From positions 1 through 64,000 of the forward strand of contig JAOUJW010000009.1 in NCBI GenBank assembly GCA_029882975.1: a stretch of 64,000 bases of DNA, read 5' to 3'. The DNA is from Gammaproteobacteria bacterium (lineage in GTDB: Bacteria > Pseudomonadota > Gammaproteobacteria > SZUA-152). Shown here piece after piece: positions 39,863 through 46,298 of this stretch; the stretch's first letter is position 1, and every line of letters starts with the position of its first letter. Position numbers and translations under genes: made by a program. Under the pieces are notes generated by a model. The model made no database searches. It was not told the origin of the DNA and worked only from the letters and a program-made list of their open reading frames with translations.

Positions 39863-40189
39863 CTACAAAGCAAGTACGAAATCAACCAGTTTTTCAATGT
39901 TGGCATCAGAAACTCGTGGAGAGTAAGGAGGCATTGGTGCGCCCTTGGTAATTTCAGTCCAGTTACCTTTACCACCTTTTTTCACTTTATCGACCAGCGT
40001 AGCTTTAGCGTCAGCGTTGCCTTTGTATTTGGCAGAAACGTCTTTCCATGCAGGACCCACTACTTTCTTTTCAACGCTGTGACAAGCCAGGCAACCGCTT
40101 TTCTTAGCCAGATCCAGGTCTGCACTTGCTTGTCCAGAAATCATAATAGCCGCCATTGCAGCGGGAATTGCTAACCATTTTGCTTTCAT
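39863..40189 (-). CDS. small class I cytochrome c (c551/c8-like)
   Basis: A 108-aa protein with signal peptide (to about residue 23) and one heme c motif CLACH (Cys33, Cys36, His37). A Met in GAPMPPYSP (near 86) is the likely distal ligand. Size and motif match the soluble c551-type periplasmic carriers that feed terminal oxidases or nitrite reductase. Own terminator downstream. Confidence 0.92.
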   Translation of the reverse strand: MKAKWLAIPAAMAAIMISGQASADLDLAKKSGCLACHSVEKKVVGPAWKDVSAKYKGNADAKATLVDKVKKGGKGNWTEITKGAPMPPYSPRVSDANIEKLVDFVLAL

Positions 40190-41484: not shown

Positions 41485-44214
41485 ATGCAAAAATCCAGCC
41501 CAATAATTTTAGTTGACGGTTCCTCTTACCTGTATCGCGCCTTTCACGCCATGCCATCACTGAACAACTCCAAAGGACAACACACCGGCGCTGTGTATGG
41601 TGTTATCAACATGTTGCGGCGTCTGCTCCAGGACTACCAACCCCAATATATGGCGGTGGTATTCGACGCCAAAGGCAAAACCTTTCGGAATGATATTTAC
41701 CCTGAATATAAAGCCAACCGCCCACCCATGCCGGACGAATTGCGGGCACAAATCGAACCCTTAAACCGGGTCATACAAGCCATGGGCTTACCGTTGATCT
41801 CCATCTCAGGTGTCGAGGCCGATGATGTCATCGGCACCCTGGCCACTGAGGCTGAAAAGTGGAAGAAAAACACCCTGATTTCTACCGGCGACAAAGACAT
41901 GGCGCAGCTGGTAAACCCCCATGTCATGCTCATCAACACCATGAGCAACACTCTGATGGACCGTAAAGGCGTGAAAGAAAAATTCGGTATTGGCCCCGAT
42001 TTAATTGTGGATTATCTGGCTCTCATGGGCGACACATCGGACAATATTCCCGGTGTACCTAAGGTTGGTCCAAAAACGGCGGTAAAATGGTTATTGGAGT
42101 ATGGTTCTCTCGTTAACATTATGACCCATGCGGACCAAGTGAAAGGCAAAGTGGGTGAAAATTTGCGCGCCAGTTTGGAGCAACTGCCCATGTCCAAAGA
42201 GCTGGCGACTATCAAATGTGATTTGGAGCTGGATCTCAATCTGGATGATCTTGCCATTCAAAAACCCGATACGGAAACACTCAAATCCATGTTTGCCGAG
42301 CTGGAATTTAAGACCTGGCTCTCGGGCCTGTTACATCCCGGTGACCGCAACAGCCCCACCAGAACCAGCAACACTCCCAAGCAATCAGACGCCCCTAAAG
42401 TCAGTAAAATTGATTACCAAACTCTGTTTACGCAACAACAACTGGATACCTGGATCGAAAAACTACAACAGGCAAAACTTTTTGCTGTGGACACTGAAAC
42501 CACAGACTTGGATTATATGCTGGCGCAAATTGTAGGCATCTCCTTTAGCATCACACCGGGAGAAGCCGCCTATATCCCTATGGGCCACGACTACCCCGAT
42601 GCACCGGCACAATTGAGCCGGGAAAGTGTGTTAGCGCAACTCAAACCGCTGCTGGAAGATGCCCGGCAGGCCAAAGTGGGACAAAACCTCAAATACGATT
42701 TAAGCGTGCTGGCCAACTATGGCATTCAACTTAAAGGGATTGCACACGACACCATGCTGCAATCCTACGTATTGGACAGCACCGCCACTCGCCACGACAT
42801 GGACTCGTTGGCACTGAAATTCCTCGGCCACAAAACCATTCATTTTGAGGATATTGCCGGTAAAGGCAAAAACCAGCTGACATTTGACCAGATCCCTGTA
42901 GACAAAGCGGCTCCCTATGCGGCTGAGGACGCCGATATTACCTTACGACTGCACCAAACCCTGTGGCCACGTCTGCAACAACAAAAAGCCATGGCGAACC
43001 TGTACCGGGACGTGGAAATTCCTTTGATTGAAGTCTTATCCCAAGTGGAACGCAACGGCGTGCTCATAAATTCTGAAATGCTGGCCAAACAAAGTGCCGA
43101 ATTGGAAAATCGCATGGCCGAACTGGAGCAGGAAGCTTTCGAAATTGCCGGCGAAGAGTTTAACCTGGGGTCAACTAAACAAATTCAAACCATTTTGTAT
43201 GACAAAATGAAACTACCGGTCTTAAAAAAGACGCCAAAGAAACAACCCTCCACCGCCGAACCGGTATTACAGGAGTTGGCACTGGACTTCCCCTTGCCCA
43301 AATTGATTTTGGACTACCGCAGTGTCAGCAAACTCAAATCCACATATACGGACAAATTGCCCTTACAAATCAACCCGAACACCGGACGGGTGCACACTTC
43401 TTATCACCAGGCAGTGGCCAGCACCGGCCGCCTCTCTTCCGCCGATCCCAATTTACAAAACATACCCATACGCACCCAGGAAGGGCGCCGCATACGCCAG
43501 GCTTTCGTAGCAGCCAAAGGCAACAAAATTGTGGCGGCAGATTATTCTCAAATCGAGCTACGCATTATGGCGCACTTATCCGGTGACGAAACCCTGTTAC
43601 AAGCCTTTGCCGACAACCAGGATGTGCACACAGCCACAGCCGCCGAAGTCTTTGGCGTATCCATTGCGGCCGTAAGCCAGGAAGAACGCCGCCGAGCCAA
43701 AGCCATTAACTTTGGGCTGATTTACGGCATGTCCGCCGAAGGTTTACGCAAACAACTGGGGATAAGCCGCAGCGAAGCCCAGCACTACATTAATACCTAT
43801 TTTGCTCGATACCCCGGCGTGAAAAGCTTCATGGACACCACCCGAATGGAAGCTCACGATAAAGCCTACGTGGAGACCCTGTTTGGTAGGCGCCTGTATT
43901 TACCCGACATCAAATCCAGTAACGGCATGCGCCGCCAAGCCGCTGAACGAACCGCCATCAACGCACCTATGCAAGGAACCGCTGCGGACATCATCAAAAT
44001 GGCCATGATAAAAACTCACGATTGGCTCCGCAGCAGTGATTCCAACATCAAAATGATTATGCAAGTGCATGACGAGCTGGTGTTTGAAATCCCGGAAACC
44101 GAGGTGAGTACAGCCGTGGAGAAAATCAACCACACCATGTCTTCGGTAACCCAATTGCGCATTCCGCTACAGGTCGACGTGGGTATTGGAAATAATTGGG
44201 ATGAAGCGCACTAG
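41485..44214 (+). CDS. polA: DNA polymerase I
   Basis: A 909-aa enzyme with all three domains. The 5' nuclease is about residues 1-290 (ILVDGSSYLYRAFHA; EADDVIGTLA). The 3'-5' exonuclease near 330-500 keeps motif VDTETTDLD. The polymerase has motif A AADYSQIELRIMAH (near 685), motif B RRRAKAINFGLIYGMS and motif C MQVHDELVFE (near 861). It fills gaps and removes RNA primers. Followed by a candidate sRNA locus and convergent engB, the gene order known around Spot 42 and ErsA. Confidence 0.97.
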   Translation: MQKSSPIILVDGSSYLYRAFHAMPSLNNSKGQHTGAVYGVINMLRRLLQDYQPQYMAVVFDAKGKTFRNDIYPEYKANRPPMPDELRAQIEPLNRVIQAMGLPLISISGVEADDVIGTLATEAEKWKKNTLISTGDKDMAQLVNPHVMLINTMSNTLMDRKGVKEKFGIGPDLIVDYLALMGDTSDNIPGVPKVGPKTAVKWLLEYGSLVNIMTHADQVKGKVGENLRASLEQLPMSKELATIKCDLELDLNLDDLAIQKPDTETLKSMFAELEFKTWLSGLLHPGDRNSPTRTSNTPKQSDAPKVSKIDYQTLFTQQQLDTWIEKLQQAKLFAVDTETTDLDYMLAQIVGISFSITPGEAAYIPMGHDYPDAPAQLSRESVLAQLKPLLEDARQAKVGQNLKYDLSVLANYGIQLKGIAHDTMLQSYVLDSTATRHDMDSLALKFLGHKTIHFEDIAGKGKNQLTFDQIPVDKAAPYAAEDADITLRLHQTLWPRLQQQKAMANLYRDVEIPLIEVLSQVERNGVLINSEMLAKQSAELENRMAELEQEAFEIAGEEFNLGSTKQIQTILYDKMKLPVLKKTPKKQPSTAEPVLQELALDFPLPKLILDYRSVSKLKSTYTDKLPLQINPNTGRVHTSYHQAVASTGRLSSADPNLQNIPIRTQEGRRIRQAFVAAKGNKIVAADYSQIELRIMAHLSGDETLLQAFADNQDVHTATAAEVFGVSIAAVSQEERRRAKAINFGLIYGMSAEGLRKQLGISRSEAQHYINTYFARYPGVKSFMDTTRMEAHDKAYVETLFGRRLYLPDIKSSNGMRRQAAERTAINAPMQGTAADIIKMAMIKTHDWLRSSDSNIKMIMQVHDELVFEIPETEVSTAVEKINHTMSSVTQLRIPLQVDVGIGNNWDEAH

Positions 44215-44298
44215 GCTAAAATGAAGCGGCTAAATAATATACAAATTGGTCAGTCGAGCACCAAAAATTAAGAATATAAAGATTTTTTAATTTAGGGT

Positions 44299-44326
44299 GA
44301 AACTTTTTTTCAATCCCTGCATCTTA
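44299..44326 (+). promoter_or_regulatory. sigmaE/AlgU-like promoter of the sRNA candidate
   Basis: GAAACTT (44299-44305) resembles the -35 GAACTT of the envelope-stress sigma factor. TCTTA (44322-44326) resembles its TCTRA -10, with a 16-base spacer. Transcription would start near 44332. Predicted only from motif spacing. Confidence 0.4.
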
Positions 44327-44331
44327 ATTAT

Positions 44332-44464
44332 CGAGCCGTTTGAGAAAACAGCTCACCCGCTTCTCCTCCCTATAGCGGGTAAACCTAAACTCAGTCTCCC
44401 CAGACTGAGACTGCTACGCCCCGGCGCTCTCGCTTACCCCTATTTGCCGCCGGGGCTTTCTTTT
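44332..44464 (+). ncRNA. candidate Spot42/ErsA-type sRNA between polA and engB
   Basis: The locus between polA and engB encodes Spot 42 in enterics and ErsA in pseudomonads. Here the region after the sigmaE-like promoter holds no ORF but three hairpins: ACCCGC (44355-44360) with GCGGGT (44375-44380) around a pyrimidine loop containing TCTCCTCCC; CTCAGTCT with AGACTGAG (44390-44409); and the GC-rich terminator (44418-44464). The loop could pair with Shine-Dalgarno sequences. Predicted length is about 130 nt, close to what is known for ErsA. Sequence homology was not testable here. Confidence 0.55.
44418..44464 (+). terminator. Rho-independent terminator of the sRNA candidate
   Basis: GCCCCGGCG (44418-44426) pairs perfectly with CGCCGGGGC (44448-44456), followed by TTTCTTTT. 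Strong terminator geometry on the plus strand with a 21-base loop. It also protects the convergent engB gene from readthrough out of polA. Confidence 0.85.
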
Positions 44465-44526
44465 GCTTATTCTAATCTCGTTACGTAGCCATGCTATTTT
44501 AACCCATTTTGTTGGAAATGGAACCA

Positions 44527-45126
44527 CTAAGCCAATTGCAACCAGCCATTTAAAACAGCTTCCAACTGCTCCAGACCACTGCGTTTTAAGGAAGAAAAAA
44601 CCTGAACGCTACAGCGATCCCGATGCTCTTTAAGGTGACCTTGCACCAGACTCAATTGCTTACTGGCAGCATTGTTTTTGAGTTTATCCACCTTGGTCAA
44701 CAACACGTGAACCGGCATGGTATTGTCGATACACCATTGCAACAACATCTGGTCTACATCTTTTAGAGGGTGGCGAATGTCCATCAATATGACCACACCG
44801 CGTAAACATTGCCGGGTGGACAAATATTCCTGCATAGTACGCTGCCACTGATTTTTGGTTGATTCCGCCACTTTGGCATAGCCATAGCCCGGTAGATCCA
44901 CCAAGCGGCGCTCAGCATCCAATTGAAAAAAATTAATCATCTGAGTCCGCCCTGGCGTCTTACTGGTTCTCGCTAGGGCTTTTTGACGCGTCAATACGTT
45001 GATTGCACTGGATTTCCCTGCGTTGGACCGGCCTGCAAAGGCCACTTCAAAACCGCTATCTTCGGGAACTTGGGATATTTTCGCGGCACTGGTTAAAAAA
45101 CCAGCATTTTGATATAAACTATTCAT
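44527..45126 (-). CDS. engB: ribosome-biogenesis GTPase EngB (YihA/YsxC)
   Basis: A 199-aa GTPase of the EngB family that helps mature the large ribosomal subunit. Motifs: G1 [14 protein letters not shown] (about residues 31-44), [14 protein letters not shown] as G2, G3 DLPGYGYA, G4 LLTKVDKL and a G5 SSLK. Convergent with polA and the sRNA candidate. Confidence 0.95.
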
Positions 45127-45305
45127 GTATTAATATATATGTAGGGCTATAAAGTTTCATTTTTGTATCTTTTTTTATAATTCGCCAAGATAATAATAGC
45201 AATTTTGTGCCGAGTGAAATAACCTAATAGCTTACTAAGGGATATCAACGGCCCTCCATTACCGACTCATAATTGCAATTATCAGTGCCAAAATGGGGAA
45301 ACCCG

Positions 45306-45623
45306 ATGCACATAACAATAAAGAATACTATATTTCTGGGCATCCTGGTTATTTCGCTTATGCCGCTCACCAGTTTGGCGCAGGGCGATTCTGAAGCCGG
45401 CAGGAGCAAAGCACGCGCTTGCCAAGTATGTCATGGAAAAGGTGGGAAAAGTAACAACCCCACTTATCCCAGGCTCGCCGGGCAACACGCAAAATATATC
45501 GTAAAACAATTGAAAGCGTTCAAAGCCGGAATCCGCAAAGATCCGATTATGAACGGTATGGCGTCAACATTAAACGAGCAAGACATGGAAGATGTAGCTG
45601 CGTTTTTTGAAAGCAACAGTTAA
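45306..45623 (+). CDS. mono-heme class I cytochrome c
   Basis: ATG 45306 starts a signal peptide (IFLGILVISLMPLTSLAQG); a start 33 bases upstream is open but lacks this reason. One heme motif CQVCH, then a distal-Met region (MNGMASTL). It resembles half of cytochrome c4 or a c553. Operon with the dihaem cytochrome 37 bases downstream. Confidence 0.88.
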   Translation: MHITIKNTIFLGILVISLMPLTSLAQGDSEAGRSKARACQVCHGKGGKSNNPTYPRLAGQHAKYIVKQLKAFKAGIRKDPIMNGMASTLNEQDMEDVAAFFESNS

Positions 45624-45659: not shown

Positions 45660-46298
45660 ATGGTGAAACGATCCAAATACCCATTACTTCACTTCTCTAT
45701 ATTAGTAATTACTTATACCCTAATAAACACAACTTTTGCCGGTAACCCCGCCATGGGACAACAAAAATCCGGCCTATGCCAGGGTTGCCATGGCCCGGAC
45801 GGCAACAGCCTGGGGCCCGATTGGCCCAATTTGGCAGCCCAACATAGCAGCTATCTGGAAAAACAGATTAAAGACTTCAAACAAGGTAAACGGGTCGACC
45901 CCACCATGAGCAACATGGTCCTGGACTTGTCTGACGAAGATATTGCCGATATTGCCGCGTATTTTTCCAGCCAAAAACTCAATCCCAGTGCCAATAGCAA
46001 TGCGGACGCAAGCGCATTATCCACCGGCAGAAAAATCTACAAAGGCGGCAATACCTACAACCAAGTTCCCGCTTGCGCCGGCTGTCACGGTCCCAATGGG
46101 GTCGGCAATAGTCCGGCTAACTTCCCACGAATTGCCGGCCAGCAAAAAAGCTATCTCATAAAAGCACTTAAGGATTTCCAGTCCGGCAACCGAACCAACG
46201 ACCCCAATAATATGATGCAAGACATAGCGGCTAAACTCACAGCAAAGGAAATAGAGGCTGTCGCAACTTATGTATCCACCTTGGGTAGTGGCGAGTAA
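45660..46298 (+). CDS. cytochrome c4 (dihaem)
   Basis: A 212-aa protein with signal peptide and two heme sites, CQGCHG (about residues 39-44) and CAGCHG (about 138-143). Each half has GPDGNSLGPDWPNLAAQH- or GPNGVGNSPANFPRIAGQQ-type loops and a distal Met, the two-domain layout of cytochrome c4, an electron donor to cytochrome oxidases. Follows the mono-heme cytochrome. Confidence 0.93.
   Translation: MVKRSKYPLLHFSILVITYTLINTTFAGNPAMGQQKSGLCQGCHGPDGNSLGPDWPNLAAQHSSYLEKQIKDFKQGKRVDPTMSNMVLDLSDEDIADIAAYFSSQKLNPSANSNADASALSTGRKIYKGGNTYNQVPACAGCHGPNGVGNSPANFPRIAGQQKSYLIKALKDFQSGNRTNDPNNMMQDIAAKLTAKEIEAVATYVSTLGSGE

Follow-up and report, generated by a model that had tools for sequence, protein, structure and literature searches.

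The window, as we call the whole 64,000-nucleotide stretch of DNA that was analyzed, carries polA (positions 41485-44214, + strand) and engB (also yihA or ysxC; 44527-45126, - strand), two ORFs that converge on a gap of ~310 bp. polA is the upstream neighbor and was used as a synteny marker for relatives. No further ORF of at least 100 amino acids is present in the gap. A small-ORF (SpfP-like) reading of the RNA described below was rejected, as no plausible start or ORF was found in any frame across it. Small c-type cytochrome genes (CxxCH) are located around the polA-engB pair, at 39863-40189, 45273-45623 and 45660-46298 of the window.

The predicted sRNA gene occupies positions 44332-44464 of the + strand (~133 nt), with the 5' end placed from the promoter and the 3' end from the terminator. 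It is preceded by an A/T-rich tract (44271-44294) that may be an UP element and that recurs at the equivalent position in nearly all same-family gaps. Downstream of this tract are a sigma-E-type -35 element, GAAACTT (44299-44305; canonical form, GGAACTT), which is conserved across same-family gaps, and, after a 16-base spacer, a -10 element, TCTTA (44322-44326), which appears as TCATA or TCTTA within the family. The RNA itself begins with hairpin H0 (GAGC.GUUU / AAAC.GCUC; 44333-44354), followed by H1 (44355-44380), whose C-rich, anti-Shine-Dalgarno loop UCUCCUCCCUAU (equal to TCTCCTCCCTAT) spans 44362-44373. Hairpin H2 (CUCAGUCU-CCCC-AGACUGAG; 44390-44409) presents a second C-rich loop, and the terminator hairpin H3 (GCCCCGGCG...CGCCGGGGC; 44418-44464, including its U tract) contains ACCCCU in its loop. 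The predicted fold, with three hairpins and a terminator hairpin, has a minimum free energy of -52 kcal/mol (z -5.9), and none of 200 shuffled sequences was equally stable. An earlier note on this DNA had made out most of this anatomy, and our analysis agrees with it on a gap devoid of genes, the promoter pattern at 44299-44326, the three hairpins with a strong terminator, the exposed anti-Shine-Dalgarno loop, a locus shared with Spot 42 and ErsA, and an ErsA-like length near 130 nt (133 nt as compared to 132 nt for ErsA).

The sigma-E pattern was rejected as stand-alone evidence in the window's own genome, where GRAACTT-N16/17-TCWTA matches four times in 5.18 Mb and the reversed control also matches four times. 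Because these counts are equal, the pattern by itself is uninformative, while its conservation is informative. The stretches upstream of other copies of the RNA were searched for the strict pattern [GAC]AACT[TA]-N15-18-TC[AT][TAG]A, with expectations taken from dinucleotide shuffles. It was found in 21 of 23 same-family copies (0.06 expected), 21 of 48 other gammaproteobacterial copies (0.06 expected) and 29 of 47 betaproteobacterial copies (0.20 expected). We take this conserved GAAACTT-N16-TCTTA-type promoter to be of the RpoE/AlgU type. An RpoE orthologue is encoded in the same genome, above its curated cut-off (316.8 bits), together with two subsequent reading frames that by inspection resemble its anti-sigma partners, and Hfq is encoded as well. 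Upstream of rpoE, GAACTA...TCTAC is a putative rpoE promoter, although it is a loose match only. The degenerate -10 element of the window would also suit a real sRNA with a housekeeping sigma promoter, as would the sigma-70-like promoters of some betaproteobacterial copies (e.g., L058, TATGAT-like) and the qPCR table for Burkholderia ncS04, in which no condition produced a significant change in expression (PMC5688073). This alternative is unlikely, given a promoter that persists in 21 of 23 same-family gaps and the presence of RpoE in the genome. Judged from these sequence patterns, the envelope-stress sigma factor apparently activates the window sRNA. At another locus (L011:1501-1602), the RNA is inverted within the gap, on the engB strand and opposite polA, with its own GAACTTTT-TCATA promoter.

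All 4227 Rfam families were compared permissively with the region, and the sole meaningful match was to RF02837 (anti-hemB) at 44353-44463 (38.2 bits, E 6.6e-7), which covers the full length of the model (positions 1-81 of 81) and falls below its gathering score of 49.5 bits. The earlier note had proposed a covariance-model search for Spot 42 and ErsA as a check. At E <= 5, neither RF00021 (Spot 42) nor RF01719 (ErsA) matched the window, nor did RF02232 (sX13), and the window stayed below their gathering scores (80, 50 and 50 bits, respectively). RF02837 matched 37 of 57 genomes; among the 24 own, same-genus and same-family genomes, 23 were positive. Across the class, 124 of 274 genomes matched this model at E <= 0.001 and only 13 exceeded the gathering score, a cut-off that shuts out most polA-engB orthologues. 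Within the same 274 genomes, RF01719 matched in 10, RF02232 in 12 and RF00021 in none, the last with its E. coli positive control found. One RNA from a same-family orthologous locus (L008) fell just short of the RF01719 cut-off (47.3 against 50 bits) and scored 45.2 bits with RF02837.

A covariance model, R2, was constructed from 58 gammaproteobacterial RNAs that had themselves been found via the RF02837, sX13 or ErsA models or an H1 pattern; the window and representative Burkholderia, sX13 and ErsA loci were held out. R2 scored the window at 66.0 bits (44328-44464; R1, 33.5 bits), well above the background maximum of 17.3 bits, i.e., the best chance match in 800 kb of the own genome, and this places the window RNA in the R2 family. 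Betaproteobacterial anti-hemB copies scored 37.7-75.1 bits (Burkholderia ambifaria, 47.4) and two sX13 (RF02232) loci scored 39.9 and 36.4 bits, also well above background, whereas an ErsA-model locus exceeded background more weakly (22.2 bits) and E. coli Spot 42 (spf) had no R2 match. Overall, R2 matched 200 of 369 class genomes, some of which had supplied training sequences.

Conservation of structure was assessed in alignments of several kinds. In a sequence-only alignment of ten same-family RNAs, seven pairs were double-changed, compared to 1.5 in shuffles. In a model-fitted alignment of the 58 gammaproteobacterial RNAs, 96% of cells pair and 362 are double-change cells (93 after shuffling and no more than 62 in slid controls); a wider model-fitted set of 89 distinct rows left this picture unchanged, and both of these alignments lean to the fitted structure, which inflates their pair counts, although the slid controls are nonetheless far lower. 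RNAalifold on a mixed MAFFT alignment recovered the terminator alone because the hairpin arms were misaligned, and the model-based alignments were used for that reason. Stem covariation was seen in H0 and H2, and in H1, which lies within the RF02837 match, all six modeled stem pairs are double-changed in relatives. The loops of the same RNAs are nearly invariant: of the 58, 57 have CUCCC in the H1 loop and 47 have CCCC in the H2 loop. The stems covary, then, and the C-rich loops stay fixed. The earlier note had also called for an alignment of related gaps, and here the outcome was favorable, with the promoter, the covarying stems and the loop all retained. A stand-alone small regulatory RNA gene in the polA-engB gap is strongly supported.

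In order to describe the genomic context of the RNA independently of its neighbors, the H1-hairpin pattern was used in a context-blind scan of ~85,000 genomes. Among the matches listed, 80 loci were read; engB was convergent downstream in 69 of these, hemB (-) was upstream in 49 and polA (+) was close upstream in seven. polA (+) and/or engB (-) adjoined 25 of the best 30 loci of the class-wide search, and polA and/or engB adjoined most of the RF02837-found loci fetched from relatives. The RNA is located in the hemB-engB gap in betaproteobacteria, from which the name anti-hemB derives, and in the polA-engB gap in gammaproteobacteria.

Several loci depart from this arrangement or carry extra copies. 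Tandem arrays of four copies occur at G193:C33:13148-13906 (L165; within the polA-engB gap), G300:C8:6557-7495 and G284:C3:217579-218301, which suggests dosage effects or loop diversification through duplication. Three differing copies, one of them with a divergent engB, are found on contigs C190, C195 and C203 of a same-family metagenome-assembled genome (MAG; G015, loci L002, L034 and L035), which is likely a mixed bin. A MAG labeled Klebsiella pneumoniae (L107) has a betaproteobacterial-style hemB/anti-hemB/engB locus and is probably a mislabeled bin. A Pseudomonas putida ASAD contig (L099) matches the H1 pattern at a site distant from engB, polA and hemB, with weak similarity (R1, 10 bits). 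In one genome (G038, L018:540-720 and 1501-1604), an anti-hemB/sX13-like RNA that does not adjoin engB is found ~0.8 kb from a gene for 6S RNA.

Taken as a whole, these data are best explained, with a probability of about 0.8, by a window RNA that is the polA-engB member of a large, widespread beta- and gammaproteobacterial sRNA family and that acts as a sigma-E-driven anti-Shine-Dalgarno repressor; the family's named pieces in Rfam would be anti-hemB, sX13 and, more distantly and probably, ErsA. For the window RNA we infer transcription, sigma-E dependence, repression and targets as follows. An RpoE/AlgU-type sigma factor with RNA polymerase would transcribe the sRNA from GAAACTT-N16-TCTTA, and the transcript would end at the terminator near 44464. 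The H1 loop, CUCCUCCC, with help from the CCCC loops in H2 and H3, would pair with purine-rich or G-rich Shine-Dalgarno sequences, and this pairing would block ribosome binding and repress translation of the targets. Under envelope stress, selected and perhaps exported proteins would in this way be made in smaller amounts.

Shine-Dalgarno sequences of the GGGAGGAG type are complementary to the H1 loop, and when the genome was searched for GGGAGGA ahead of ATG, 36 sites were returned as compared to 18 in the reversed control. The strongest such site with a convincing gene is AGGGAGGAGGG, ahead of the start of the gene for an exported cytochrome c7-like protein (Pfam PF14522). Its predicted duplex with the sRNA (-24.4 kcal/mol) was lower than those of all 732 start regions sampled, which came from 40 stretches of the own genome, and its purine-rich Shine-Dalgarno sequence is kept across the same family. 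This gene was picked post hoc and is a candidate target only. No co-variation of loop and Shine-Dalgarno sequence was seen for it across genera (g3 and g6 share the Shine-Dalgarno sequence and differ in loop), and c-type cytochromes were not significantly enriched as a target class (p 0.07). Target prediction is weakly specific here because anti-Shine-Dalgarno loops pair with any strong Shine-Dalgarno sequence. With several C-rich loops per molecule and tandem copies in some genomes, the RNA could instead be a titrating one, in which a C-rich-binding protein or a second sRNA, and not the ribosome-binding sites of mRNAs, would be captured by the loops. We regard this as improbable, as the precedent of sX13 is to target G-rich motifs in mRNAs (PMC3771888) and strong Shine-Dalgarno sequences are complementary to the loop.

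The earlier note had proposed a Spot 42/ErsA-like sRNA. The sRNA gene is well supported; kinship with Spot 42 did not hold up, and that with ErsA is indirect, by way of the 47.3-bit score of L008. Spot 42 resembles the window RNA in position (polA-spf-yihA in E. coli) and size, but a sequence or structure match is absent in both directions. Its kinship by covariance model was rejected, with RF00021 silent in the window and in 274 genomes and R2 silent on spf. As for its control, the title of a reference in PMC3771888 describes Spot 42 as repressed by cAMP-CRP. ErsA (Pseudomon-1, RF01719) shares with the window RNA the polA-engB gap, a length of ~130 nt and C-rich hairpin and terminator loops, and an ErsA-model hit (L164) has a promoter of the GAACTT-N16-TCATA (AlgU) type, as in the window. 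ErsA is 132 nt long and sigma-22-dependent; its gene order, polA-ersA-engB, is given in PMC8575079. It differs in having a U-rich single-stranded domain, with no counterpart in the window, and it is through this domain II that ErsA pairs with anr (PMC8575079); to activate anr, ErsA requires Hfq. A strict Spot 42 or ErsA orthologue, pairing through unstructured stretches in place of C-rich loops, would account for the common gap, the similar length, the AlgU-type promoter and the near-cut-off RF01719 score in the same family, but it is decidedly improbable when RF01719 misses the window RNA, the anr-pairing domain is lacking, and Spot 42 orthology is already largely refuted by the two model searches. 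A mere transcription terminator between convergent genes, for which H3 would serve polA well, is very improbable, since the H0-H2 stems show covariation and the C-rich loops are invariant, a conserved sigma-E-like promoter lies just upstream, the betaproteobacterial element is flanked by hemB (-) and engB (-), where no gene on the + strand would need terminating, and in Burkholderia the homologue is transcribed as a discrete RNA (PMC5688073).

By sequence, anti-hemB (RF02837) and sX13 (RF02232) are the nearest of the described relatives; the earlier note named neither. Anti-hemB, the Burkholderia ncS04, has in common with the window RNA a C-rich H1 hairpin, CCCGCUUCUCCUCCCU(G)AGCGGG, a terminator, a convergent engB downstream and, in most of the betaproteobacterial copies read, a sigma-E-like promoter. 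It differs from the window RNA in its H2 and in its upstream neighbor, which is hemB on the other strand in place of polA. In B. cenocepacia, it is a mapped transcript of 105 nt with mapped ends (PMC5688073). The sX13 RNA of Xanthomonadaceae resembles the window RNA in its location downstream of polA, its three hairpins and its C-rich apical loops. The window RNA, in comparison, has C-rich loops in H1, H2 and H3 and an extra 5' hairpin, H0, and no GAACTT promoter is obvious at the two RF02232 loci over the cut-off. The sX13 RNA is 115 nt in length, with homologues reported in Xanthomonadaceae only, and its C-rich loops repress mRNAs that have G-rich motifs near the start in an Hfq-independent manner (PMC3771888). 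The same paper noted that Spot 42 and alpha-r7 RNAs are likewise located at polA and asked if other polA loci encode sRNAs (PMC3771888).

We lean toward a single origin for these RNAs, in which one ancestral sigma-E-controlled sRNA with C-rich loops gave rise to anti-hemB, sX13, ErsA and the window RNA and was kept beside engB in approximately half of the beta- and gammaproteobacterial genomes sampled, such that the polA-locus sRNAs of Xanthomonas, Pseudomonas and Burkholderia would be one system. ErsA, sX13 and anti-hemB have each already been described, and the interest lies in bringing these three families together; in a search largely outside subscription journals, no paper was found that joins sX13 with ErsA or anti-hemB with both, or that names RF02837. 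Thus far, sX13 and ErsA have been treated as lineage-specific regulators, and anti-hemB is almost without literature. If the single origin is true, it would provide an answer to the question raised by the sX13 paper regarding related sRNAs at other polA loci (PMC3771888), and there would be, beyond enterics, a widespread sRNA that is a candidate sigma-E-controlled repressor. One engB-side family would also allow data on targets and mechanism to be transferred among sX13, ErsA and anti-hemB.
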